The notes under the pieces are model-generated. The model searched no databases. It saw only the letters and a list, made by a program, of their open reading frames with translations, and was not told the DNA's origin. 29,569 bases of DNA from a virus, in the IMG/VR virus record IMGVR_UViG_3300009529_000034, positions 1 through 29,569 of that record, one strand, 5' to 3'. Positions 4,556 through 29,045 of this stretch are shown here, piece after piece (within the stretch, counting starts at the first letter, position 1; every line of letters starts with the position of its first letter). Made by a program: the position numbers and the translations under genes.

Positions 4556-6231
4556 CGCTTTTTCAGATCTTCCAAGAATGCTGGGCCTAGAACAGCTTCC
4601 TGCATATTAATTTTGCCTACTAAAATAGCCTCTACCAAATCATCTACGGTGTTTGGGCAATAGAGGCTTATTATGTGTACCTTTTGAGTCTGGCCACCTC
4701 GATGTAGTCGATCTTCCGCCTGTGTTTGCTTTTCAGGATTGAACCACTTATCTACAAAAATAGCAGTATTCGCTCCAACTAAGTTTAATCCCACACCGCC
4801 AGATTGAAGAGTGGCGACCAAGACCCTTACCCCCCCTGTGTTTAGTCTTGCCTCTTCTTGGCTTATTTCTTCTGAGGTCATTCCACCCCAAATTCGTGTA
4901 TGAGAAATTTCCGCTTTTACAAGGCGTTTGCACAGGGCATCCACAGTCTTTCTAAACGCAGTGAATATAACGATAATGTTATGTGTACCAAGAACGATGT
5001 CCATAGCAGCGTCGAGTTTCGCGCTTTCGTCAGGTAGGTCAAAGTTCGCAGGTGTGCTTAGGATTTGACGAAGGCGAGTAATCATAGAGATGACGTTCAC
5101 GGCGTAAAGTTTCTTGGTCTCTGAAAGTTCGATATAGAATCGCTTCGCCATATCGTCGTAATGTTTTTCTTGCTTGGGCAGTAATTCTAGAGAGATCGTC
5201 TGAAATAACTTCTCTGGCAGGAATGGCATGACCTCCGCCTTCGTCTTGCGGATCATTCTAGGTGCAAGTTCTCGCCTAAGAAGTTTTGGTCGTTTTACGC
5301 CTATGATTTTTCTAGTGCCCCAGTAATCTTCTGAATAGGAAACGTAAAATTCAAAGAAGCGCCAGTAGCTCGTGTATCGCTCTGGCTCCAGAAAGTTTAG
5401 TAGCGACCATAACTCCGATGGGTTATTACCAAATGGTGTACCTGTGAGCAAGCAGCAGTTCTTGAAACGCAACTGTTTCGTCAAAAAAGCTATTTGCGTC
5501 TTCCTATTTCGTATAGTCTGCGCTTCATCGAGGATGAGCCAGTCCCAAGTATTCACGAAATATAATGATTGTTCTCTGAGCGTATCAATGTCAAATTTCT
5601 GCGAGATGCTCTGTTGACCAATACTTTTAGCCTCAGCCCTGATTTGGGCATAGTTAGCAATGATCCATCCCCCATCATAAGCGGCAAGGGCATCTCTGCG
5701 ATTCTTCGTTTCAACCACAGTAGTTGGCTGGTTTGGAAACGCCGTCCAAGTATTCTTTTCATTCTTCCACCAGGTCTTCAAGGAATTCGGGCAGAGTACG
5801 AGCACCTTATCATTCTCCATGCTCTCTTCCACTGCTATAATGGCTGTGGCTGTTTTCCCCGTGCCCATGTCAGATGCTAAGAGAGTGCGTTTGAATTTGG
5901 TGAGGCAGTCTGCGGAGACGCGCTGGAAAGGCCACAATTTAATAGCGTTTGGATGAAACAGGGGTGCGTCGTCTCGAAGTAAGAGTTGAACTCTCTTATT
6001 TTCTTCGGCGATGACTTCTTTGTACCACTGTTGGGCATTCTGGTCTAAAGGCGTTTTGGTCGTCCAGTAGATGAGTTCACAGAGTCTTGCATCGAGGGGG
6101 ATGACGACGCCGTTAGCAGTTTTCTTCACCCCTGTGATGTTTTGTAGCATTTCCCATGTTGGGGCAGCAGCGGCTCCGCTAATGAATAATTTTGGTGAAT
6201 ACTTTTGTGTACGTGGCAAAAGTTTTATCAT
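4543..6231 (-). CDS. SNF2-type superfamily 2 helicase/translocase
   Basis: A 562-residue protein with the two RecA-like lobes of SNF2 proteins. Visible motifs are DMGTGKTATAI (Walker A, about residues 121-131), LDEAQTIRN (motif II, 234-242), LLTGTPFGN (motif III, 261-269), and motif VI QAEDRLHRGGQ (504-514) preceded by GGVGLNL and FVDKWFNP. These define an ATP-dependent dsDNA translocase. Phage homologues are thought to act in replication, recombination or branch processing. The N-terminal 90 residues are not recognised. ATG 6231 overlaps the upstream stop as ATGA, so it is coupled to the homing endonuclease gene. It ends in TAG inside the convergent virion gene. Confidence 0.9.
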   Translation of the reverse strand: MIKLLPRTQKYSPKLFISGAAAAPTWEMLQNITGVKKTANGVVIPLDARLCELIYWTTKTPLDQNAQQWYKEVIAEENKRVQLLLRDDAPLFHPNAIKLWPFQRVSADCLTKFKRTLLASDMGTGKTATAIIAVEESMENDKVLVLCPNSLKTWWKNEKNTWTAFPNQPTTVVETKNRRDALAAYDGGWIIANYAQIRAEAKSIGQQSISQKFDIDTLREQSLYFVNTWDWLILDEAQTIRNRKTQIAFLTKQLRFKNCCLLTGTPFGNNPSELWSLLNFLEPERYTSYWRFFEFYVSYSEDYWGTRKIIGVKRPKLLRRELAPRMIRKTKAEVMPFLPEKLFQTISLELLPKQEKHYDDMAKRFYIELSETKKLYAVNVISMITRLRQILSTPANFDLPDESAKLDAAMDIVLGTHNIIVIFTAFRKTVDALCKRLVKAEISHTRIWGGMTSEEISQEEARLNTGGVRVLVATLQSGGVGLNLVGANTAIFVDKWFNPEKQTQAEDRLHRGGQTQKVHIISLYCPNTVDDLVEAILVGKINMQEAVLGPAFLEDLKKRYPG

Positions 6232-8196: not shown

Positions 8197-9765
8197 TTAG
8201 CATTTTCGCAAACAAGTCTTTAGAATCGCTTTAGGATCTGTCAGTCCACTTTCTCGTATCTTGGCAAACCACCAATTAATCCTCTTTTGACCAATGTTAC
8301 AATATTCCTTTTCAAGCTCAATCGCTGTGATATTCCTCCATCCTGCTAAAAGTGCGCCGATTGCTTCACTCAGCACACCAGCGAAGGGGATCAGAAGGTT
8401 AGCCTCATCTCGATACTCTTCTGGTGGAATGATGAGGGTGGCTAGATATTTACAAAGAGCTAAAGGTTTCACAGTGGTATGAGAATTACGACGTGGTGCG
8501 CCAAGAGCAGATTGTCGCCCTGGTGCTGGTTTGCTGCGTCCCGATGCTGGAGGAGGACTAAGAGACAATTCTTCCAACCCTGCATCACGTTCTTTCTTAT
8601 TGGCCTTTGGCGTATAGAAAAATCGTTCGCCTTCAAAGCATCGAAAATAGCGAGCAGCACCACCTTTATCACTGTATGTTGAGTTCCCTAAATAGCCACC
8701 TCCACCAAAGATTCCACCACCATATTGAAGTCCTTCATCCGCATATTTCTTACCATAGTTCTTTTTCCATTTATTGCCACATTCCCCACTTTGAGCATTT
8801 AGCATATTCACAGGGCATCCCTCGATACATTCCCACGCCTCCACCGTCTCAAAGCCATCGGGGTCACTCATTTCGATTCGTTGGGGACGTGTTTCTGATT
8901 GCACAAACATAGAAGTCCCGTGCTGTTGCGGAAATGCCCCGCTTCCTTTCACCTTTTTTGTCCCAATCTTTTTGCACTCTGGCGAATGACTGAAAACTAC
9001 GTTTGCTGGCCATCTCCCACTTTGTTGGCGACTTGTAAAAGGATGTCCTGCGCCATCTCCAAAAGGTTTAGCGCCATCATCCCAAGTATTGATGACATAT
9101 GGCTCGGCACTTGGTATTCGGCAGCCATCTATGTTGAGGGCAGAAGAACCGTGCTCCATCGCCGTCTGCGCGAAAGTTGTATTTCGGGGTTTTCGAGCGA
9201 GCAAGATTGGCTCGAAGCTGGGCTTAAGATTTGTCCCATAGCCTTCCCAAATCTTGGCAGCGTCAGTGGCGGGAGCAGTGATTGCAAAATGCTTTTCGTT
9301 GCCTTCATAGGGGCTATAAATATTTGTATTAACGCTTTGATTGTATGATCCAGTAGGCCATTCATCTCGATAAGTGCCGCGTTCTATCTGTCTAGGATGT
9401 ACATATTTGCCCACCACCTCCCGCTCCGTGCCCGCCGCCTTGTCTATCGCCTTACCAATGTTGTGAGATTTCGGCATCCCCTGCCCATGAAGCCACATCA
9501 TGGTATCGAACAATTCAAACCCAGCATCCTCTATCGCCACACCCAGTCGATGCCAAGTCCTTGTACCAGAGAATGCCATAAGTATCGCACCAGGTTTGAG
9601 CACACGTAGTATCTCTGCCCAATAAGGAGATGCTGGTACACCGTGATCCCACGCCTTGCCCATAAATTTTAATCCATATGGCGGATCACAAAGAGCACAG
9701 GTGAAAGATTCATCTGGATAATCCCTGAGAACTTCTATCACATCACCTTGAATTATTGAGATCAT
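8197..9765 (-). CDS. DNA methyltransferase (N4/N6 type, DPPY), large
   Basis: A 522-residue amino-methyltransferase. DPPY is at residues 27-30 (ALCDPPYGLKFMGKAWDH) and the AdoMet-binding FAGVLSEA-type motif is near the C-terminus (about 461-468), followed by ITAIELEKEYCNIG. This DPPY-first order is of the beta type and predicts N4-cytosine or N6-adenine methylation. A long middle region of roughly 250 residues, rich in Gly, Ser and Cys, probably holds target recognition. ATG 9765 is chosen over GTG 9789: the segment between contains AAGGAGAGG, which works as ribosome site for 9765. The 5' end overlaps the nrdD stop by 23 nt. No restriction enzyme is adjacent, so protection of phage DNA is more likely than a restriction-modification pair. 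Confidence 0.85.
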   Translation of the reverse strand: MISIIQGDVIEVLRDYPDESFTCALCDPPYGLKFMGKAWDHGVPASPYWAEILRVLKPGAILMAFSGTRTWHRLGVAIEDAGFELFDTMMWLHGQGMPKSHNIGKAIDKAAGTEREVVGKYVHPRQIERGTYRDEWPTGSYNQSVNTNIYSPYEGNEKHFAITAPATDAAKIWEGYGTNLKPSFEPILLARKPRNTTFAQTAMEHGSSALNIDGCRIPSAEPYVINTWDDGAKPFGDGAGHPFTSRQQSGRWPANVVFSHSPECKKIGTKKVKGSGAFPQQHGTSMFVQSETRPQRIEMSDPDGFETVEAWECIEGCPVNMLNAQSGECGNKWKKNYGKKYADEGLQYGGGIFGGGGYLGNSTYSDKGGAARYFRCFEGERFFYTPKANKKERDAGLEELSLSPPPASGRSKPAPGRQSALGAPRRNSHTTVKPLALCKYLATLIIPPEEYRDEANLLIPFAGVLSEAIGALLAGWRNITAIELEKEYCNIGQKRINWWFAKIRESGLTDPKAILKTCLRKC

Positions 9766-11821
9766 AGACTCGCCTCTCCTTATATTCACTGGTTTTACCG
9801 AAATTCCATTCGCTCACAGGTCGCAAATAGCCAACCACTCGACTATACACCAGAGGCTTCTCATCGCAGTGAGGACATTCATAATGTTCGCCGTTCAGAT
9901 AACCGTGGCTAGGGCAGATAGAAAACGTCGGTGTTATGGTAAAGTAGGGAAGTCTAAACTTTGTGGCTATCTTTTTCACTAGACTCTTGACTGCTGTCGC
10001 AGAAGGCATCTGCTCACCGAGGAAGGCGTGGAAGACTGAGCCACCTGTGTAAAGAGGGAGAGTCTCATCCTGCCATTCGAGTGCTTGGAATAGATCATCG
10101 ATAGCATTCACAGGTAGTTGAGTGCTATTTGTATAATATGGCTCATCGCCTCCTGCAGTGATTATATCAGGGTATGCCGCTTTGTCCAAAAGCGCAAATC
10201 GATAGGCTGTGCTCTCTGCAGGCGTCGCTTCGAGATTGAAGAGTTGTCCAGTTTCAGTTTGATAACTAAGAAGTTTTTCATTCATAAACTCAAGGACTTC
10301 CTTAGAGAACTCTCTAGCCTCCTCTGATGTTAAATCTTTCCCAAGAAGATTTAACGTAGCTTCATTCATCCCACACAGGCCGATGGTATTGAAATGTCCG
10401 CTCCACCAACCTCCGAAACGCTCTTTGGTATAGGCCAAGTAATGCTTCGAGTATGGATAAAGTCCCTGTTCGGTGAATCGCTCTACGATCTTTCGTTTAG
10501 TCAAGAGACTATCCTTGGCGATGTCCATAAGTTCGCCGACTCGTTGTAAAAATGCTTCTTTGCTCTTGGTCAAGTAACCAATTCTGGCTAGGTTGAGCGT
10601 AACCACGCCAATACTCCCTGTGCTTGGCGCGGAGCCAAATAAGCTTCCTGCTCGGCGCATGAGAGCATTCAGCTTAATAGACAACCTGCAGCACATACTT
10701 CGCACATCGTCTGGACACAGATTAGAATTGACAAAATTGGCGAAATAAGGAATGCCATATTTTCTGGTGACTTCCCACAGGGGTAAATATCTAGGATTGT
10801 CCCAATCAAAATCTTTGGTGATGTTCACCGTGGGTATGGGAAAGGTGAACGGCTTTCCAGAAGCGTCGCCTTCTAACATAACTTCAAGCAGGCATTCATT
10901 GAGCAAGTCCATCTCAGATTGAAAGTCTGCATAGAATTCGTCGTATTTTTCGCCACCAATTATGATATTCTGCTCTCTTAGGTGCTCTGGTACGGTAAAG
11001 TCCAGTGTTATATTTGTGAATGGCGATTGATGCCCCACTCGCGTTGGCACATTCATATTGAAAATAAATTCTTGAAGATATTGTTTTATATCTTTCTTGC
11101 TAAGATTGTCAAAAGAAATAAAAGGTGCAAGGAGAGTATCGAAGTTAGAGAAAGCAACTGCCCCTGCGACCTCTCCCTGGACGGTGTAGAGAAAGTTCAC
11201 TATCTGCCCTAGTGCAGACGAAAAGTGCTTGGCAGGAGCACATTCCAGTTTTCCAGGAGCACCGCCAAAGCCCATAATCAGCAGGTCTTCCAAATCCCAT
11301 CCACAGCAATATGGCGCGAGGAGATAGAGATCATGAATGTGCAAATCACCGCTGATGTGTGCATCCCTGGCTTCTCTTGGGTATAGAGAATTCAACCAAT
11401 AGGCGCGGTTTACCTCAGTGAATATATGATTATTGAGTCCTTGTAGAGAATACCCCATATTAGCATTCTCTTGCACTCTCCAATCGGTTCTATCCAAGTA
11501 GCCATTGATAAGCTCATTGGCATCTATCAGAGCACGGACATCACGTAACTTTCGATGAAGGTCTCGATATAGGATGTACGCCTTAGCAGTCTTGGCGTGC
11601 CCATTTCTTATGAGCACTTCCTCGACTACATCTTGGATTTCCTCTACGGAGGGCGTATTGAAACGCTTCTCAAGAACTTTTAAGACATCGTTAGAATTGT
11701 GTATCGCCAACGACATATCATCGCCACCAACTGACTGTGCAGCCTTGAATATGGCGTTGGTTATCTTTTGTTGATCGAACTCTACTACTCTATTATCACG
11801 TTTTTTGACTTTCATTATCAT
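9743..11821 (-). CDS. nrdD: Anaerobic (class III) ribonucleoside-triphosphate reductase
   Basis: A 692-residue glycyl-radical enzyme that reduces NTPs to dNTPs without oxygen. An N-terminal ATP-cone occupies about residues 1-95 (KKRDNRVVEFDQQKITNAI). The catalytic barrel contains the family motif LCPDDVRSMCCRL and the SIGVVTLNLARIGY segment. The C-terminal zinc site is C636, H639, C649, C652, followed by RVVGYLRPVSEWNFGK, where Gly664 is the predicted radical site. AGGAG sits eight bases before ATG 11821, which overlaps the upstream TGA. The cognate radical-SAM activase NrdG is not in the window; the radical SAM protein at 26300-27730 does not look like NrdG. This gene argues for replication in an anaerobic or facultative host. 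Confidence 0.95.
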   Translation of the reverse strand: MIMKVKKRDNRVVEFDQQKITNAIFKAAQSVGGDDMSLAIHNSNDVLKVLEKRFNTPSVEEIQDVVEEVLIRNGHAKTAKAYILYRDLHRKLRDVRALIDANELINGYLDRTDWRVQENANMGYSLQGLNNHIFTEVNRAYWLNSLYPREARDAHISGDLHIHDLYLLAPYCCGWDLEDLLIMGFGGAPGKLECAPAKHFSSALGQIVNFLYTVQGEVAGAVAFSNFDTLLAPFISFDNLSKKDIKQYLQEFIFNMNVPTRVGHQSPFTNITLDFTVPEHLREQNIIIGGEKYDEFYADFQSEMDLLNECLLEVMLEGDASGKPFTFPIPTVNITKDFDWDNPRYLPLWEVTRKYGIPYFANFVNSNLCPDDVRSMCCRLSIKLNALMRRAGSLFGSAPSTGSIGVVTLNLARIGYLTKSKEAFLQRVGELMDIAKDSLLTKRKIVERFTEQGLYPYSKHYLAYTKERFGGWWSGHFNTIGLCGMNEATLNLLGKDLTSEEAREFSKEVLEFMNEKLLSYQTETGQLFNLEATPAESTAYRFALLDKAAYPDIITAGGDEPYYTNSTQLPVNAIDDLFQALEWQDETLPLYTGGSVFHAFLGEQMPSATAVKSLVKKIATKFRLPYFTITPTFSICPSHGYLNGEHYECPHCDEKPLVYSRVVGYLRPVSEWNFGKTSEYKERRVYDLNNSR

Positions 11822-12045
11822 GTTGTTTGCTCCTTTGATGTTAATTCGATGTTAGCCCACTCCCTGCAAGAACTCACCAATATCACTAACAAACCTTTTA
11901 GTTTACAACGTCCCAGAGCAAGTCGATTCTCGCCAGGAGTCGTCAAGAGGAATCCCATAAATTGTTCATAGTAGAGCCGTTGGCAATGAGTACAGTTACC
12001 ACAGTTGGCCTCGATAAGATTTAGTATTGATTTACTCTTAGGCAT
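11818..12045 (-). CDS. Small cysteine-rich protein, putative zinc finger
   Basis: A 75-residue protein with GGAGAG ahead of ATG 12045. Cysteines are arranged as CGNCTHC near residues 15-21, then GRCKLKG and SSCREW. This spacing recurs in small phage proteins and suggests one zinc site. It ends with TGA overlapping the nrdD ATG (ATGA), so the two are translationally coupled. A role as a regulator or accessory factor of the reductase is conceivable from coupling alone. The function is unknown. Confidence 0.7.
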   Translation of the reverse strand: MPKSKSILNLIEANCGNCTHCQRLYYEQFMGFLLTTPGENRLALGRCKLKGLLVILVSSCREWANIELTSKEQTT

Positions 12046-12057
12046 TCAACTCTCTCC

Positions 12058-13071
12058 TCATTCACATTCACCAATGATCTCATAAATCATTTGATCACCA
12101 AAAGCCTTCCTCAGACGCCTCTTGCTCAGATTGATTGCTAGAGGTCCATTGTCTATTCCGATCCACTGGCGATTTAATCTCTGAGCCACCTCCATAGTGG
12201 TGCCACAGCCACAGAATGGATCAAGTACCAAGTCATCCTCATTGCTACTGGCCTTGATTATACGCTCAAGCAGAGCCTCTGGCTTCTGTTTAGGATATCC
12301 TAAACGTTTGTTCTTGCGTTCATAGTCGCAAAGAAACCAATCTCGTGGTGGTACACCAAGAGGGACAAGTTGGCGATAAGTCTCTGAAGAGGTGTCCTTT
12401 TCTATGGGTGCAAATCCGCCACCTCTTTTATAACGCAAGATGAAGAATCTACCTTGTTCATCTATGTGCTGGGAAAGAGCTATCCGCGAAGATTCCTTCA
12501 GTGGAAGCATTACCTCATGCCAATTGAATGTCCATTGGGAGCTTTTAGTATAGAAAAGAAGAACGTCATGCTTGCGATTCCATCGTCTTTTGGCTAACTC
12601 ACGCCCTTCATAACACCATATCACCTCGTTTTGGAAATTCTTGACATTAAACACTGCATCCATCAGCATCTTCAGGTAGTGACTGGCCGTCGGGTCGCAA
12701 TGGAGGTAGATGGAGCCAGTCGGCTTGAGCACCCGACACAGTTCCATCAAGCGCGGGGCCATCATGGACAGATAGGATAACATATTGTCATCACCCAGGA
12801 ACATTCTAAAGGCTTGCATAGCTTGGGATACCTTGCCCCCCACCTCTACCACCTCCTGGTAGGCTTCCTCCGCTGCTTGATCCCATCGCCAGATGTCCTT
12901 GAAAGCCTTTTGGCTAGTGGTCTTACTTTCGTTCTTCTCTATGAAGAATGCGTTATAGGTGGTGTTGCTGTTGAAGGGCGGATCGAGGTAGATGAGATTG
13001 ACGGACTCATCTTTGATGTACTGTCGCAAAACATTCAGATTGTCACCATAATATAGAGCATTATTACACAT
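12058..13071 (-). CDS. DNA methyltransferase (N4/N6 type, DPPF)
   Basis: A 337-residue methyltransferase with DPPF at residues 30-33 (IYLDPPFNSN) and the AdoMet motif DPFCGCGTT at about 284-292, then WIGIDNGPLAIN. The DPPF-first order places it in the beta group. The central region (CYEGRELAKRRWNRKHD, then FYTKSS) is typical of the N6-adenine/N4-cytosine family. It overlaps the polymerase gene by 8 nt (ATG inside the last codons of PolA), so it is translated in the same unit. It is the second of three distinct methyltransferases here. Their low mutual similarity outside motifs argues for different specificities rather than duplication. Confidence 0.88.
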   Translation of the reverse strand: MCNNALYYGDNLNVLRQYIKDESVNLIYLDPPFNSNTTYNAFFIEKNESKTTSQKAFKDIWRWDQAAEEAYQEVVEVGGKVSQAMQAFRMFLGDDNMLSYLSMMAPRLMELCRVLKPTGSIYLHCDPTASHYLKMLMDAVFNVKNFQNEVIWCYEGRELAKRRWNRKHDVLLFYTKSSQWTFNWHEVMLPLKESSRIALSQHIDEQGRFFILRYKRGGGFAPIEKDTSSETYRQLVPLGVPPRDWFLCDYERKNKRLGYPKQKPEALLERIIKASSNEDDLVLDPFCGCGTTMEVAQRLNRQWIGIDNGPLAINLSKRRLRKAFGDQMIYEIIGECE

Positions 13072-15319
13072 CCAAGTCCCCCCACCTGTCTCCGATTGCT
13101 GTCTTGACTAAAAATGGAATTCTTTCCCCACAAACTTCTCTTGCTGTCTCTTCCATAATCTTTACGATTTCAGTAGCCACCCTCTGTGCGCTGTCTTCTG
13201 GAATTTGACATAAGATTGAGTCATGAACGGTTAGAAGCACCTGCCAACCTTTTTTGGCTATCTTTACTAAGGAGATTAGAGTGATGTCGCTGGCGATTGA
13301 TTGGGGGAGGAGGTTAATTCCCTGGCGAAAGATGTCTTCTCTGGATCTTTTGGGAATATATGGAAATCTCCTTCTCCTACCTAAGGAAGTCTCTAAGTAT
13401 CGTTCCCTGAGTATCTTTTCTTGAATCTCTCCACGCCACTGAACAAAACGAGGAATCCTAGTAAAATAGTCTCTAACGATCCGTTCAGCTTGATGATAGT
13501 CAACACCAGGAACATTTACATTAGTCACCATCCGTTTTATTCCCATACCATAAGCCAAACCGAAGTTACAGGACTTGGCCACTCCTCGCTCCACAGGGTT
13601 GAAGTCTGGGCCAAAGAGGGTTTTGGCCATCTCATCGTGGAGATCGCCTGCTTTTTCATAGGTATTTATTAGGAAGGGATCTCCAGACAAGATGGCCATT
13701 ACTCGGAACTCCGCTTGAGACAGGTCGGCATAGATCAACTTCATCCCCTCATCGGCGACGAAGAAGTTGCGAATTAACGGCGTATCCGCTGGTTGATTTT
13801 GCAGATTCGGATCTTGTGAACTGAGTCTTCCAGTAACCGTACCGTGCAGAAGGAATTGAGTGTGTATCCTATCATCTTGCACGCTTTTAGCTAAAGAGAC
13901 GACGTATGTGGAATGCAGCTTCATCAACTTTCGATACTTTAGCAATTCATCGACGAAAGGATGGCCTTTGAGCCTGTCTAAGACTTCTTTATCAGTCGAG
14001 CGTTTCTTGATCTGTGGCAATCTGAACTCGTCGAATAAAATCTTGGCTAATTGCTGTGTGCTATTAGGATTGAAGTCGTGTTTGACGAATTCTCGAAGGT
14101 CGATTCGCAGTTGCCTAAGCTCTTTCTTTAATTGTTCATCGACTCGATGTACCTCTGCTAAGTCGATCCTCGTACCGAAAAGCTCCACGTCTGCCAAGAC
14201 ATTGGCTAGAGGAACCAAGATGCGGTCAAGAACTGATCGTTGCTTAGGATACCTCTCAAGAGCTTTCTGAAAATATTCTGTCAACTTGTAGGTGTAAAAT
14301 CCATCCCACATTGTGTATTTGTAAAGCATATCTTGGGGAAGGTCGGCGTAGCTCTTGCTTTTAGGAAGTTTCACATCCCAATCGTGAGCGTTCAAGTAAA
14401 TTCTGGCAAGGTGCTTCAAGCCGTGGCTGCCCTTCCTTTTGGCATTTCGCTCGTCGAGGACGTAGTGAGCGAGCATCGTATCGAAGTTGAACTCAAAATC
14501 AACGCCGAGACATCCCTTGAGTAACTTTCTGTCGAACTTGAAATTGTGACCGATCCAACACGTATCATACTCAGCTAGAGCGGTCATAAAGGAGATGTCG
14601 TTGGCGAGTTCTTTAGAGAGCACCAAGACTTTATCCTTCGTAGCTACGACGCCACAGAGTATCGTGCAATCCAACGGATTTAGACTTGAGGCTTCTATGT
14701 CGAAAACAGCCATCGGCGAATTCGCTAAAGCATCGAACACCTGCTTTGGATCATCAACAATAGACCAATCGACTTTTGGATCGCTCAGATCATATTCACT
14801 GCGATAGGATGGAATGAACCAAAACTTGGCCTTCTTCAAGTCGAATAAAACATCTCTATAGTAATCTAAGAAGCGAAGAACCGCTGCTGGATGAATCGTG
14901 GGAAGCACCTCAGTCTGTAACTCCTCAGAATAGCACACGCGACCTCTGCGTAAAGTAATCCCTGCTCCCTTTCCCAAAAGAAGGTCGGTAGCGATTGCTC
15001 CGAGGGCGATGACCAATTCAGGCTCGTGATCTCGGATCTCCTGAATGAGACGATTTCGACAACAGTAGGCGGCGGGTACTTTGTATTTCACATCAGTGGG
15101 AAGGCAAAGTGTCGTATTGGTGAAGAAGATGTCATCAAGACCCACAAGTTTGATCGCCCCGTGGAGAAGTTGCCCGCTAGGCCCTACGAAGACTTTTCCC
15201 TGGCGATCCTCATCACGACCAGGCCCCTCGCCAACAATGACATATCGAGGTTTTTCTGGGCCGTGACCATACACCAGTTTCTGTCCCTGAAGAGGGCAGG
15301 AAGCGCAATCGGTGAGCAT
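13064..15319 (-). CDS. polA: DNA polymerase I fused to N-terminal uracil-DNA glycosylase
   Basis: A 751-residue fusion. Residues 1-170 match family-4-like uracil-DNA glycosylase: CASC at 5-8, GEGPGRDED at 30-38, FVGPSG at 44-49, C72 and C86/C87 completing a probable [4Fe-4S] site, and TIHPAAVLR at about 141-149. Residues about 200-385 are a DnaQ-like 3'-5' exonuclease with FDIEASS (D207, E209), GHNFKFD and a final YxxxD. The polymerase has motif A YADLSQAEFR (about 530-539), motif B KSCNFGLAYG (about 582-591) and motif C VHDSI (698-702), where Ser replaces the usual Glu of HDE. There is no 5'-3' exonuclease domain. ATG 15319 overlaps the upstream TGA as TGATG. It is the likely replicative polymerase; the glycosylase could scan for uracil ahead of the fork. 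Confidence 0.93.
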   Translation of the reverse strand: MLTDCASCPLQGQKLVYGHGPEKPRYVIVGEGPGRDEDRQGKVFVGPSGQLLHGAIKLVGLDDIFFTNTTLCLPTDVKYKVPAAYCCRNRLIQEIRDHEPELVIALGAIATDLLLGKGAGITLRRGRVCYSEELQTEVLPTIHPAAVLRFLDYYRDVLFDLKKAKFWFIPSYRSEYDLSDPKVDWSIVDDPKQVFDALANSPMAVFDIEASSLNPLDCTILCGVVATKDKVLVLSKELANDISFMTALAEYDTCWIGHNFKFDRKLLKGCLGVDFEFNFDTMLAHYVLDERNAKRKGSHGLKHLARIYLNAHDWDVKLPKSKSYADLPQDMLYKYTMWDGFYTYKLTEYFQKALERYPKQRSVLDRILVPLANVLADVELFGTRIDLAEVHRVDEQLKKELRQLRIDLREFVKHDFNPNSTQQLAKILFDEFRLPQIKKRSTDKEVLDRLKGHPFVDELLKYRKLMKLHSTYVVSLAKSVQDDRIHTQFLLHGTVTGRLSSQDPNLQNQPADTPLIRNFFVADEGMKLIYADLSQAEFRVMAILSGDPFLINTYEKAGDLHDEMAKTLFGPDFNPVERGVAKSCNFGLAYGMGIKRMVTNVNVPGVDYHQAERIVRDYFTRIPRFVQWRGEIQEKILRERYLETSLGRRRRFPYIPKRSREDIFRQGINLLPQSIASDITLISLVKIAKKGWQVLLTVHDSILCQIPEDSAQRVATEIVKIMEETAREVCGERIPFLVKTAIGDRWGDLDV

Positions 15320-16062
15320 CAATCTTTTATCCTATTCATAATCAATTGATAGTATTTCTCATCTATCTCAGCAGAAATAAAATTCCGTTTGAGAACTTTG
15401 CACACTTCGATTTCCGAGCCACTTCCACCGAAAAGAATCAAAACAATGTCTTGAGGCATAGTACACGACTTAATTAACATTTCCGAAAGTGCTTGAGGAA
15501 TTTGACATGTATGAAATGTTTTCTCTTTGCTAACATTTTTTACCAAGTTATAGTAAAACCAATCATATGGCATTCTACCTTTTGAGCCGTTTGCCAAGTT
15601 GTGTATAATTCGACGATCCGTGGGATTCTGATACGGCACAGCCACATTGTTCTTATAAAAAAGGTTATTCTTTGTTTTACGACAGTGGAGAATGCTACGA
15701 TGTGCAGTCGTAAAGCGTTTCGGCGTGTGCCCCACATTTGTATTGAAAATCCAAGCGTAATCGGCTATTTCATAACAAATATCATCTAAAAACTTTACCC
15801 GCAAATGTGCATTTTGTTTCGGGTAGTTAATGAGAAACATATTTCCTGTGTCTTTGAGGACACGTAATGATTCCCTCACCAATTCAATATACCAATCGAT
15901 ATAGTCATCGAAGTTCCGCGTGTAGGACTTGCCCCTATAATGCACACCTACATTATAATCAGGATCTCCATACACCATATCAACGGACTGATCTGGTAAC
16001 TCCTGAAGGAGTTCCATTACATCCTTCAAGAAAATCCTATTCAAGTATGGTTTGATGTCCAT
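15319..16062 (-). CDS. DNA methyltransferase (N6-adenine type, DPDY variant)
   Basis: A 247-residue methyltransferase if started at ATG 16062 (MDIKPYLNRIF), which has GAGG just upstream. A TTG reading from 16113 would add 17 poorly supported residues and overlap the small interrupted gene. The catalytic motif reads DPDYNVG at residues 33-39, not DPPY; DPDY-type variants occur in some phage and TTV-like adenine methyltransferases. The AdoMet motif LFGGSGSE is near residues 210-217, followed by SAEIDEKYY. The catalytic Asp and Tyr are kept, so activity is plausible. It ends in TGA overlapping the polymerase start. It is the third methyltransferase in 8 kb. Confidence 0.85.
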   Translation of the reverse strand: MDIKPYLNRIFLKDVMELLQELPDQSVDMVYGDPDYNVGVHYRGKSYTRNFDDYIDWYIELVRESLRVLKDTGNMFLINYPKQNAHLRVKFLDDICYEIADYAWIFNTNVGHTPKRFTTAHRSILHCRKTKNNLFYKNNVAVPYQNPTDRRIIHNLANGSKGRMPYDWFYYNLVKNVSKEKTFHTCQIPQALSEMLIKSCTMPQDIVLILFGGSGSEIEVCKVLKRNFISAEIDEKYYQLIMNRIKD

Positions 16063-16081
16063 ATCCTCAGTCTTAGACCAA

Positions 16082-16336
16082 TTAGACAGTATCTTCCGCC
16101 AATACCCGTGCAATTCTACCTAAAGCTTTATAGACAGCAATGCGAACGCCATAGTCTGCATCCCATTTATCAGGATAGCAAACTTTGGAAAATCCAAAAC
16201 AAGGCTTCTTTGTTCACATATAAAGCACTTTAGCTGCAGTATAGGGTCGCTCTTGCCATATTTCAACTTGAATACCCGAAGAATGACGTTCATACAAAGC
16301 AGCCAACTTTTGAAGAATCTCCGTACGTTTACTCAT
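16082..16336 (-). CDS. Small phage protein gene interrupted by in-frame TGA
   Basis: AAAGGAGAAAA precedes ATG 16336, directly after the primase gene. Forty codons (MSKRTEILQKLAALYERHSS, ending AAKVLYM) reach TGA 16214-16216. The same frame continues for 43 codons to TAA 16082-16084 with a coherent C-terminus, KPCFGFSKVCYPDKWDADYG, then VRIAVYKALGRIARVLA. As I recall, small phage proteins often end with a C-x-P-x-D-x-[FW]-D-x-x-x-G-x-x-[IL]-A-x-x-[RK]-A-L pattern, matching the part after the stop. So the downstream half is real coding sequence and the TGA breaks or recodes one gene of about 84 codons. Function is unknown. Neither product alone is long enough to look complete. Confidence 0.6.
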
Positions 16337-16345
16337 TTTTCTCCT

Positions 16346-18862
16346 TTAAGTATAGTCTTCCTTAACATCGCTGATTTCGGTATGTAATGAAAGGCAATCA
16401 GGAGTTTCCAAACCGCACTTGAAAGCTCGACCGAGGTGAATCCCTGTGCATCTGTAGGTTTCACCAGAGATGGGTATTGGCTTAGTCCCAATTACATACT
16501 TGTTTTCCCGCTCCTTTAATTGAATTATAACGGCTTTATACTCTATTGGGTCTCTTCCCTGTCTGCCCCGCTCCACCCGCCACCAGCCGTAGGCTGCATA
16601 CATCGGTATCCAAAGGACATTATCGGCAGCGTCATACCTCCAACGGAAACGTTCTAGTCCACTACGTAGGGAAACATAGTTTACCACATCTTCGACGAAA
16701 CTATCCACAGCTATCCTTGTGCCACCTGTTACTGTCTTCAACATAATGTTGTCCAAGGTAGCCATAAAATCAACGCGATCCCAGACTATAGGAGGAGCTT
16801 CGTACCTCTTGGCGAATTCATTGTACAATTTAATTCCGACTACGGAGACGGCGAGATTTCTCCGTAATCTATCAGGTAGAACATCTGAAAATACTGTAAA
16901 CAACTCAGACATCGATTCGTTGAATAAATTAGAAATCTCCTCACAACCATATTCCAAAGTAAATTGGATATATCTACCAGCAAAGAGATTCAGCGGATAT
17001 TCGATTAGGGTCTTCAACGCTTCATAGCGAGAGCTACCTTCTTTGATAGTCTCTGGATGCAAGTTCACGATCAAAGCCCGTTCTTTAATTGCTCCTGTGC
17101 CATCTTCCAAAGCGTCCTCTCCATCGACACACACAGGAGCGATCAATGGATAAGTAACGGTTGTTTGATCTTGCCGCCCGCGCATATCCTCCTGTCGATT
17201 GTATGCGGTACGCATTATGTCGAGGAAATCAGCGTGACGTTGAGAGCGTGCCAAGGCTCGATAATCGCCGAAAGAAATGGGAATCGCATTAGTAGAACCG
17301 AATAAGGATAATAAACTAAATCTAGTGGTATGGTAGGAATAAGCTGTCGGAGGATCGTAACCAAATAAAGGCAAAAAGATACTCTCGACTGTAGTAGTTT
17401 TACCGCTACCCGTGGTTCCAACGATATTAAGATGAGGAAATTGAATTCCCGACTCCCAGAAAACCGTAGCCAAAGGAGTCGCGAAAAACCAACCGATGAT
17501 TGGAGTCATAACATCGGCGTAATTTATCTTTGGTAGATAATTAAAGATATTTTGTACCAGTTTTTCATATTGCACGGGATTGGGAAATTCATATCTCAAC
17601 TTTGGTGGATTACGTCCTGTAGGAATGTAGACATAAGGAGCCTCGTCATCTTCATATAACTTATGAGCATCGAAAGTTATGCCTTGTGTAGTCCAGTAAT
17701 TCTTATGTCTCCCCAAAACTTGAGTTCCATAGGCTGTAGGTGCATCATCCTCTCTAAGACGATCCATAAGAGCTGGAAGAAGACTGCGTACCTCGAAATC
17801 TGTTCCCAGCCATTGCCATGAGGCATTTTTCATTTGTTTCAAGAAGTTCATCGTCGAATTAAATACTGAACGCGGAAAGGCTTGATTGGGCACTTCTTTA
17901 TCCATTGATCGCACCGTTCCAAAGATTATATCCTCGTTATTTTCTACTGACCTCAAGAGTTTCTTAGGGTCTATTACGAACGTACTGACTCTTTTACGTT
18001 TAGTTTCAGTAATGTACCAGTAACAGCTATTCTTATCCTCTTGAAAATTAGTCGATAACGTTCTATTTGCACGATCCTTTGCCCTGGGGAGGTCGTAATT
18101 GTGCAGAAGTCGAAGACCACCATCCTCTTGAATCCGCTCTCCAAACGGTAAGGAGAGACACAGTTGCTCTATCCCAGCATCAGAAACTTTACATTTTACT
18201 AATTCCATAATTACGACTAGATCGCGTTCGCTACGAGAGCGATAATTCCAGAGCTTTTTATTACTAATCGCCCCTGACCACATCATATCCTTGATTTTCT
18301 GTGAAACTTTACAGAATTTTAACAAGTCATTGGGATTGTAAGTAAGATTCTCATAGAACTCCATCACCTTCACTGGCACGGGATGGTCAGGTTCCTTGAA
18401 GTTGGTGCTCCCTGGAATTCTTAGACGCCAGCCAGCGTGATGGGTTGGATCAGACCCTATGGTGTTGCAAAAAGAGCGCATTATTTCTTGCGCCTTCTCA
18501 GGTGTTACTGGACTCTGCAACTTCCAATAGGAATGGTATCCGTGGCCACTGAAGACTAAGCAGGTAGGAGATGCGGGGATGGCTTGGATAGACGCTTTAG
18601 CTTTTTCTGAGGAACCGAAATCTTTAGAATCGATGTCTGCCCAAACACAGGTCACTCTGCTTACTGTTTCTTTGAGGCCCCTGATTCTAGGTGCAACGCC
18701 AAAGAAGCAGTCGTGATCCTTGAACTTATCTCGATAAGCGAGAGCATTCACGACACCATCGACCAACTCACCAGGCAGAAGACCAACCCCTGCATGAGGT
18801 CGATGAGTGACTAAGATTTGTTCACTGGGATTTATGTCGGAGAAGATGTTTTCTAGGAGCAA
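16346..18862 (-). CDS. Primase-polymerase (AEP-like) fused to P-loop helicase
   Basis: An 838-residue replication protein. The N-terminal third resembles archaeo-eukaryotic-type primases: WADID (D76, D78), SGHGYHSYW at 105-113 with the conserved His, and RLRIPGSTN at 146-154 with the nucleotide-binding Arg. A linker of about 250 residues follows, then a P-loop NTPase with Walker A VGTTGSGKTT (about 478-487), FGDYRALARS and APVCVDGEDAL, as in SF3-like or RepA-like phage helicases. It probably primes and unwinds DNA at the fork with the PolA fusion. The start is TTG 18862, since the in-frame upstream codon block holds TAA and no ATG or GTG fits; no clear Shine-Dalgarno is seen. It lies just downstream of the non-coding stretch with the orphan T-arm. 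Confidence 0.85.
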   Translation of the reverse strand: MLLENIFSDINPSEQILVTHRPHAGVGLLPGELVDGVVNALAYRDKFKDHDCFFGVAPRIRGLKETVSRVTCVWADIDSKDFGSSEKAKASIQAIPASPTCLVFSGHGYHSYWKLQSPVTPEKAQEIMRSFCNTIGSDPTHHAGWRLRIPGSTNFKEPDHPVPVKVMEFYENLTYNPNDLLKFCKVSQKIKDMMWSGAISNKKLWNYRSRSERDLVVIMELVKCKVSDAGIEQLCLSLPFGERIQEDGGLRLLHNYDLPRAKDRANRTLSTNFQEDKNSCYWYITETKRKRVSTFVIDPKKLLRSVENNEDIIFGTVRSMDKEVPNQAFPRSVFNSTMNFLKQMKNASWQWLGTDFEVRSLLPALMDRLREDDAPTAYGTQVLGRHKNYWTTQGITFDAHKLYEDDEAPYVYIPTGRNPPKLRYEFPNPVQYEKLVQNIFNYLPKINYADVMTPIIGWFFATPLATVFWESGIQFPHLNIVGTTGSGKTTTVESIFLPLFGYDPPTAYSYHTTRFSLLSLFGSTNAIPISFGDYRALARSQRHADFLDIMRTAYNRQEDMRGRQDQTTVTYPLIAPVCVDGEDALEDGTGAIKERALIVNLHPETIKEGSSRYEALKTLIEYPLNLFAGRYIQFTLEYGCEEISNLFNESMSELFTVFSDVLPDRLRRNLAVSVVGIKLYNEFAKRYEAPPIVWDRVDFMATLDNIMLKTVTGGTRIAVDSFVEDVVNYVSLRSGLERFRWRYDAADNVLWIPMYAAYGWWRVERGRQGRDPIEYKAVIIQLKERENKYVIGTKPIPISGETYRCTGIHLGRAFKCGLETPDCLSLHTEISDVKEDYT

Positions 18863-19209
18863 GTTTTATCTCATTAGAAGAAATGATTTTATTTTCTCTC
18901 AAGGCAGCGGTGCAGGATTCGAACCTGCTATGTGTATGCTTGACCCGTACACTGTGGGTATGTAGGCCGCTCGTCACGCGGTCATCATTATACTCGGCTA
19001 TGCTAGAGCTTTTTACGACTTTGCTGACCCACAGGCGTACACTTGAGGTTTTTGTTCAGCGTTTTCGCCAGAACGCCACCCGCGCCCTCTAGCGTGATTC
19101 CACCTGGTACGGTTTTACAAGCGGTATCCAGCTACGCTTTGACCCTGCACGACATACTAGAATTGTCGATTAGGCTACTGGAAATCACACGCCGCCCGCA
19201 CCATATTCA
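18863..19209 (-). other. Non-coding stretch with an orphan tRNA T-arm
   Basis: This 347-nt stretch has no credible ORF on the minus strand. At 18928-18912 the minus strand reads as a perfect tRNA T-arm: GCAGG stem, TTCGAAT loop (consensus TTCRANY), CCTGC stem. ACCGCTG then C follows, as in an acceptor 3' strand, with no encoded CCA. I find no matching 5' acceptor (CAGCGGT) and no D-arm, and the putative anticodon arm has an 11-nt loop or a mismatch, so this is not a normal tRNA. A weak alternative is a long RNA: GGCGGCG at 19196-19190 can pair with CGCTGCC at 18909-18903 with one G-U, enclosing about 294 nt. CTGTGGGT and ACCCACAG further inside also pair. It could be a tRNA-like RNA, a tRNA remnant, or an attP core. 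Confidence 0.4.
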
Positions 19210-19365
19210 TTACCATAGAAACTGACTAAGCCTGTCCCAGAATGGCTTTCTGCCGAATAGCCAAAAAGTCACGTTGTAAAGCCACCATCGAAATCGGTGG
19301 TCTTCAGGTGAACCAGATTCTACATGGAGGAATCCATCCGCATCCAAATCCAAATTATATCCCAT
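19210..19365 (-). CDS. Small hypothetical protein
   Basis: A 51-residue protein starting at ATG 19365, chosen because AGAAGGATTGTG precedes it; a TTG reading from 19446 adds a basic, ill-supported N-terminus. The sequence is aromatic and partly hydrophobic (RWWLYNVTFWLFGRKPFW), which might anchor it at a membrane or in a complex. It is the first ORF after the structured leader and promoter at 19443-19586, and is followed by the non-coding stretch. I do not recognise a family. Confidence 0.5.
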   Translation of the reverse strand: MGYNLDLDADGFLHVESGSPEDHRFRWWLYNVTFWLFGRKPFWDRLSQFLW

Positions 19366-19442
19366 CACAATCCTTCTTTTGAGTTTGTTTGATTGTCGCC
19401 TGTGCCATACTTTACCTTTTATATTTCTATCCCATAGAGAAG

Positions 19443-19550
19443 GCAAACCCCTCGTTGCTTAGTGTATAATTTCGGCGAACCTCAACGTGGTGGTTACGCC
19501 GCATTCACCACGAGGGGCGGAGGCCAACCCACCTCGTCAACGAGGGTTGC
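19443..19550 (-). promoter_or_regulatory. Structured leader with two alternative pairings
   Basis: Predicted transcription from the promoter at 19558-19586 starts near 19551. The RNA would begin with GCAACCCTCGTTG (19550-19538). That segment can pair locally in CAACCC-N13-GGGTTG (with inner CCTCG/CGAGG), or distally with CAACGAGGGGTTTGC at 19457-19443. Between them lies a second strong hairpin, GTGGTG/CCACCAC with a 12-nt loop. Such mutually exclusive pairings are the hallmark of attenuators and other cis-regulatory leaders. There is no clear U-run, so control of translation or RNA stability is as likely as termination. The leader is about 185 nt up to ATG 19365. Confidence 0.45.
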
Positions 19551-19557
19551 ACAAACT

Positions 19558-19586
19558 AGGATAGCACAAGAGGTTCTTTCTGTCAA
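19558..19586 (-). promoter_or_regulatory. Sigma70-type promoter, TTGACA-N17-TATCCT
   Basis: On the minus strand a perfect -35 TTGACA (19586-19581) and a -10 TATCCT (19563-19558) are 17 bp apart, with TTGTGC just before the -10 (extended -10 TGC). The promoter overlaps the last codons of the upstream gene. It shares TGTGCTAT with two other promoters in this window. It would drive the structured leader, the 51-residue ORF and probably the primase. Confidence 0.7.
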
Positions 19587-20338
19587 ACGGGAATATCCCC
19601 ACCCTCCTCTTCTTCGACCGCGCCAGTTTCTTCTTCAGTCTCTACGGTTGTCTCTACCTCAGTGGTGACTTGGAACTCGCGGAGTTCGAGGAACTTGTCG
19701 CGGAAGGGACGCCAATCGTAGGTTTTCGACGCCTCTTCGTCAACGTTTATCACCGTTTCATACCAAGTCCCGATGTCTCCAGTGATTGGGCCGATGGAAG
19801 AGATGACCACAGGTCTTGAAAAGAGAACCGACTTAAAACGAATCTTGAACTCACTCAGGATTCTCTTTGCGTGTCTGACGCTCATGCCACGCATCGACAG
19901 CATGAAGGGGCTGTTCTCTTCCAAGTCCCAACAAAGAAAGTTGTACATAATGGGACACTGAGGTCTGGTGCGATCCTTCCCCCAATTGGCATTTACACAG
20001 TCGGAGCATACCTTGGCGTATTCACCAGCAAATCGCACCATAGGAGTATGTGCATCATTGCTGGAGCACAACAGGTTTGCCTTTTGATCGAACATCGCCC
20101 TGCCGTGGGTGAACCGCAAGAGAACCGCCTTAATTAGTGGTTTCGCGTTTCTAGTTACGTTGTTAATGTACCAACCCAACTCACCCTCGGTGATCTTCGA
20201 GAGAGCTTCCCTCTTGATATAACGAGGGATTATCAAATCTGCTCGCCCAAAGTCTTCCATACCTTCCCCTACTAGGTCGTCAGGGATTTCTGGGACTACC
20301 GTCGGCAAAAACTCTTCCTTCTTGATCAAGTCAGTCAT
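19583..20338 (-). CDS. Probable ssDNA-binding protein
   Basis: A 251-residue protein. TAGGAGGAAGAG precedes ATG 20338, which overlaps the upstream stop by 8 nt. After an acidic N-terminus comes RADLIIPRY, then CSSNDAHTPM and CSDCVNANWG with a later Cys, probably one zinc site, and a beta-rich region. The last 45 residues are very acidic (EVETTVETEEETGAVEEEEG), the kind of tail by which single-stranded-DNA-binding proteins contact partners. Position between primase and coiled-coil genes fits a replication accessory. I recall phage proteins with this RADLIIPR...C...C..C layout annotated as hypothetical or SSB-like. DNA binding is inferred, not shown. Confidence 0.55.
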   Translation of the reverse strand: MTDLIKKEEFLPTVVPEIPDDLVGEGMEDFGRADLIIPRYIKREALSKITEGELGWYINNVTRNAKPLIKAVLLRFTHGRAMFDQKANLLCSSNDAHTPMVRFAGEYAKVCSDCVNANWGKDRTRPQCPIMYNFLCWDLEENSPFMLSMRGMSVRHAKRILSEFKIRFKSVLFSRPVVISSIGPITGDIGTWYETVINVDEEASKTYDWRPFRDKFLELREFQVTTEVETTVETEEETGAVEEEEGGDIPV

Positions 20339-29016: not shown

Positions 29017-29045
29017 ATTATAGCACAATCACTATGATTTGTCAA
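29017..29045 (-). promoter_or_regulatory. Consensus sigma70 promoter, TTGACA-N17-TATAAT
   Basis: On the minus strand, TTGACA (29045-29040) and TATAAT (29022-29017) are exactly 17 bp apart, with TTGTGC before the -10, giving an extended -10 (TGCTATAAT). It is the strongest promoter in the window. It overlaps the last codons of the gene ending at 29032 and reads into the gene starting at 28973, with a leader of about 37 nt. Confidence 0.85.

Follow-up and report, generated by a model that had tools for sequence, protein, structure and literature searches.

The stretch of DNA analyzed here, called the window below, is a 29.6-kb IMG/VR virus fragment (29,569 nt) with tail genes on the plus strand at one end. 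The remainder carries mostly minus-strand genes for replication and nucleotide metabolism, including a primase-like/ATPase gene, a DNA polymerase A gene with an N-terminal UDG-family domain, DNA methylases, an anaerobic ribonucleotide reductase, an SNF2-type helicase and an RNA ligase. The locus under study lies between a gene for a 251-aa protein (19583-20338) and the primase gene. Its features are listed below.

19558..19586, minus strand: promoter TTGACA -17- TATCCT (TTGACA 19586-19581, 17-nt spacer, TATCCT 19563-19558) with an extended -10 TG; member of the phage class TTGAC-N13-TGTGCTA
19443..19550, minus strand: structured leader RNA, ~108 nt, conserved in the related loci L002, L003, L004 and L005
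19538..19550, minus strand: 5' strand of helix P1, GCAACCCTCGTTG, at the predicted transcript 5' end; invariant in all variants
19443..19457, minus strand: 3' strand of P1, CAACGAGGGGTTTGC, with a 2-nt bulge (1 nt in L005)
19516..19533, minus strand: hairpin P2, GGTGG-gttggcct-CCGCC (19533-19529 with 19520-19516); two pairs changed on both sides
19486..19512, minus strand: hairpin P3, CGTGGTG/CACCACG (19512-19506 with 19492-19486); two pairs changed on both sides
19473..19501, minus strand: probable H-type pseudoknot, loop CGGCG(T)AAC (19501-19493) with GTTCGCCG (19480-19473)
19532..19545, minus strand: alternative 5' hairpin CCTCG-TTGA-CGAGG, invariant; excludes P1 and P2 and is predicted solely for the early phase of transcription
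19525..19549, minus strand: proposed local arm, CAACCC (19549-19544) with GGGTTG (19530-19525); not conserved
19210..19365, minus strand: small 51-aa ORF past the leader; a 17-aa ORF with its start at 19408 lies ahead of it
16346..18862, minus strand: primase-like/ATPase gene, 838 aa, the first long gene of the leader-headed unit

The sequence-only reading had placed a strong promoter ahead of a leader RNA, and a promoter is present there on the minus strand. In the window the 251-aa gene ends in a stop codon that overlaps the -35 element, and the transcript is predicted to start at 19552-19550, 6-8 nt after the -10 element. Two further promoters of the same make were found in the window, at 29045 and 24302. 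The pattern TTGAC-N12-14-TGTGCTA occurred in 26 copies in the window and four related contigs (3-7 per record), whereas reversed-pattern controls gave 0. The promoter is therefore more than a chance match, and these counts indicate that the class is genuine.

The same RNA was found behind the same promoter in IMGVR 3300031566_000084, 3300031566_000009, 3300031539_012188 and 3300009499_000008, with one copy per record. Three distinct sequences were obtained: that of the window, one shared by L002, L003 and L004, and that of L005. Identity to L005 is ~89% in the RNA versus 77% in the neighbouring DNA. Rfam 15 covariance models gave no match at the gathering threshold in the window and none up to E=5 in 18850-19620, and blastn of the RNA against 50,697 phage records returned chance fragments only (best E=4). 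An exact-motif search of prokaryote genomes, where diverged relatives could exist, gave 0 matches. A looser motif, AATGCGGCGTAAC..GTTCG, matched L013, L014 and L015; the rest of the RNA is absent there and these matches look like chance. Alignments of the primase or the 251-aa protein revealed no distant relatives beyond the same four contigs. The primase ATPase domain had no relatives in prokaryote genomes, and among phage records the primase had distant matches only, to Halorubrum virus CGphi46 and an Oceanotoga phage. An RNA on the plus strand was rejected, as the RNA covariance model scored at most 17 bits on that strand. Protein coding in the RNA direction was also rejected, with stops in all three frames of all variants; one antisense frame across the RNA is open, without support as coding.

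With column 1 set at 19550, the fold model pairs columns 1-13 with 94-108 (P1), 18-22 with 31-35 (P2), 39-45 with 59-65 (P3), and 50-54 and 56-58 with 71-78 (pseudoknot). P1 comprises 13 bp with a small bulge and was recovered independently as a 9-nt perfect inverted repeat. It is the long-range pairing that the earlier reading had described, GCAACCCTCGTTG (19550-19538) with CAACGAGGGGTTTGC (19457-19443), and it forms the closing helix of the model. Since P1 never varies, it is backed by conservation and complementarity and not by covariation. P2 reads GGCAG/CTGCC in L002 and GGTGG/CCACC in L005, with pair changes U.G/C-G/U-A and G-C/A-U. P3, which corresponds to the separate hairpin proposed between the arms, is compensated in L005 (CACGGTG/CACCGTG), where the pair changes are G-C/A-U and U-A/C-G. 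All eight pairs of the pseudoknot are kept, with one consistent one-sided change from G-C to G.U (GTTCGCTG in L005); together with complementarity, this points to a probable pseudoknot in the second inner hairpin.

Pairing in the model was found in 98 of 98 counted cells, compared with 36-55% when the partner was slid by 1-3 columns, and it was preserved at all nine substituted columns within helices. Among 42 helices of at least 4 bp common to all variants, at least two both-sided changes occurred solely in P2 and P3. Relocating the same substitutions at random produced two such helices in 1 of 2000 trials. These results indicate that the P2 and P3 hairpins are real and preserved by compensatory changes, which number four in total; the covariation is thin because there are only three distinct RNA sequences. 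One-sided changes go via G.U pairs present only on the minus strand (P2 pair 20-33 and pseudoknot pair 51-77), and thus the direction of the RNA matches that of the promoter. The leader region folded better than its shuffles in the three variants (z about -2.6 to -3.7). RNAalifold, run without pseudoknots, preferred a competing pairing over the pseudoknot, and standard folding programs (also without pseudoknots) yielded other layouts, so the global fold remains a model. Compact, well bounded and without an Rfam match, this structured RNA is a clean candidate to found an RNA family of its own.

The RNA had been described as sitting at the head of the primase transcript. It does appear to head the replication unit; the primase itself starts ~580 nt farther on, past small ORFs and tRNA-like elements. 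The small genes downstream of the RNA differ between the window, L002/L003 and L005, and the place of the 51-aa ORF is taken by unrelated genes in relatives. L002/L003 have a gene of 135 aa between the 251-aa gene and the promoter; it weakly resembles nucleoside deoxyribosyltransferases. The promoter and RNA are thus fixed in place while the genes on both flanks are swapped between relatives, and the operon beyond the adjacent small genes is conserved. The next start codon lies ~29-34 nt past the RNA. In each of the five records, the series of class promoters ends with the RNA-bearing one. Behind it lie 12-16 kb of replication genes, mostly in the same orientation, as far as the convergent structural genes, and no further promoter of the class was found within this unit in any of the five. 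Two records contain one opposite-strand 260-codon frame inside the unit, which was not judged a gene.

That the RNA-bearing promoter closes its series and has 12-16 kb behind it, while the genes beside the RNA are swapped, favours an operon-level leader over a gene-specific riboswitch. Such a pattern is in keeping with an element that acts on its own transcript, whatever the first gene. We assign a probability of about one half to the reading that this is a pseudoknotted ~108-nt leader RNA, the first segment of the long replication transcript, acting in cis. Within this reading, the promoter class, the position and the P2 and P3 hairpins are established by sequence comparison; the single stable fold and the action in cis are what we infer. 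Transcription from the phage promoter would yield the RNA as the first segment of the replication transcript, which would run from primase to helicase (~15 kb in the window). The nascent RNA would pass through the short 5' hairpin and then reach a stable three-way junction closed by P1, in which its 5' end would pair with its own 3' part. The folded RNA would act in cis on whatever sequence it is joined to. It may modify the elongating RNA polymerase, allowing put-like read-through of the long, partly untranslated operon, or it may guard the long mRNA against decay at its 5' end. Antitermination would be the most interesting cis role and 5'-end protection the plainer one. Terminator-like sites inside the unit (9 observed) are rarer than expected by chance (13.2) and so give no direct reason for antitermination. 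Counting against a cis leader, short leaders suffice for most genes behind the other class promoters.

The sequence-only reading had interpreted the leader as a switch or attenuator. In an element of this kind, a ligand, a protein or translation would decide whether the 5' segment pairs locally or with the distal strand. The structured leader behind a promoter stands, given its conservation, compensatory changes and promoter class; the switch gained no support. Its competing local arm is broken in two of the three variants, by C.A in L002 and by A.A in L005. Compensatory change was found in neither of the helices proposed to be mutually exclusive, P1 being invariant and the local arm broken. 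In favour of a switch, the other hairpin at the 5' end, CCTCG-TTGA-CGAGG, the one alternative fold left, excludes P1 and part of P2, and the total invariance of P1 would suit a double constraint. This hairpin (5 bp, about -6.7 kcal/mol versus about -15.1 for the closing helix, both predicted) is predicted to form once transcribed and then to be displaced when the distal strand appears. It is invariant across variants, hence uninformative for covariation, and may represent either a step in folding or a genuine alternative state. The leader position and such a hairpin are common to riboswitches, attenuators and the phage RNA. Unlike them, the phage RNA has no terminator after it, no consistent start-site sequestration (mean probability of downstream bases pairing with the leader 0-0.12, with no consistent pairing predicted for the ribosome-binding region), no conserved gene beside it to be regulated and no matching riboswitch in Rfam. 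We therefore consider a switch improbable, and under the favoured reading the leader would not be a sensor for one downstream gene.

The main rival to the cis leader is a stand-alone phage small RNA whose 3' end would arise behind the closing helix, through processing or termination, and which would act in trans by binding a host or phage protein or RNA. The RNA has its own promoter, its 5' and 3' ends are paired as in many stable small RNAs, it contains invariant unpaired stretches, and its flanking genes are exchangeable. However, no terminator follows it, a start codon lies within about 35 nt in every variant, and it always heads the replication unit, which makes a free small RNA possible but rather unlikely. 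A DNA-level element, whether operator dyads or a replication origin whose repeats merely resemble RNA helices, could account for the CAACGAGG-like word repeated locally and for the site beside replication genes. Against this, pairs are kept via G.U on one strand only, the element lies exactly after the promoter, and the hairpin stems change together, where protein sites would keep their letters. A replication origin was rejected because GC skew tracks gene direction and shows no switch at the locus; DNA-level explanations as a whole seem very unlikely. The closed 5'-3' helix and three-way junction of the model resemble phi29 pRNA, and one hairpin loop contains a self-complementary GGCC, yet with no Rfam match and structural genes not adjacent, a packaging-RNA-like or replication-primer RNA is the most remote of these readings.

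Returning to the cis-acting operon leader, comparable elements are known. LoaP-type NusG paralogues mediate processive antitermination through leader elements, which resemble the phage RNA as structured leaders heading long operons; the two were set beside each other by the Rfam scan only. In HK022, putL lies just downstream of its promoter, and antitermination by put is RNA-mediated (PMC9378689). Like put (putL/putR), the phage RNA lies close behind a promoter, here presumably an early one, and would act in cis at the head of a long transcript. The put RNA is ~70 nt, has two stem-loops and occurs twice per genome, whereas the phage RNA is ~108 nt, has a 5'-3' closing helix, two hairpins and a probable pseudoknot, and occurs once. 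The blastn search described above showed no sequence similarity of the RNA to known phage elements. As length, fold and sequence differ, we do not claim membership of the put family, and put-like activity is proposed by analogy. A new phage RNA class that, through its own fold and with no dedicated protein, keeps the host RNA polymerase processive along a 15-kb replication operon is doubtful, though conceivable; it would be an antiterminator that works like put but has an unrelated structure, in phages of an uncultured group. A pseudoknot in the tisB mRNA 5' UTR serves translation standby of one gene (PMC7708055). The likeness lies in a pseudoknot near the 5' end and upstream of a small gene; in contrast to tisB, the gene following the phage RNA is not conserved.

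Fold-preserving changes in related phages indicate that the fold of this about 108-nt RNA, which is undescribed, is real. The RNA sits at the same site in each of the five members identified of an uncultured phage group, linked to a defined promoter class. Few phages, HK022 among them, are known to control polymerase by RNA alone. If the antitermination reading is true, the RNA would provide a second RNA-only polymerase-control fold, unrelated to HK022 put. Even with a simpler role, it would help define the transcription plan of these phages.

Several further observations were made in these records. The window encodes a family A DNA polymerase with an N-terminal uracil-DNA-glycosylase-family domain (13064-15322, minus strand) and three separate DNA methylase genes in one replication unit (8197-16113, minus strand). 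The tRNA-like elements just upstream of the primase lie at 19203-18898 on the minus strand of the window, where the 5' part is present in two copies. In L002 (~5651-5767), ARAGORN in intron mode called a 117-nt tRNA-Leu(gag) with a 25-nt intron. The elements of L003 (~5599-5780) and the window appear to keep the acceptor, D-arm and T-arm (GCAGGTTCGAATCC), with a longer and different middle. Directly behind another promoter of the class, L040 (1301-1421, minus strand) contains a tRNA (Rfam 47 bits) whose anticodon region is enlarged by ~50 bases. In the L005 phage, two more long leaders behind class promoters (L043 from 1500 and L048 from 1500) look structured by eye and have no Rfam match. Several class promoters (e.g. 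L045, L047, L056) carry a palindrome, TAGCAC-TT-GTGCTA, that overlaps the extended -10 and is possibly a repressor site; the RNA's own promoter is without its left half.
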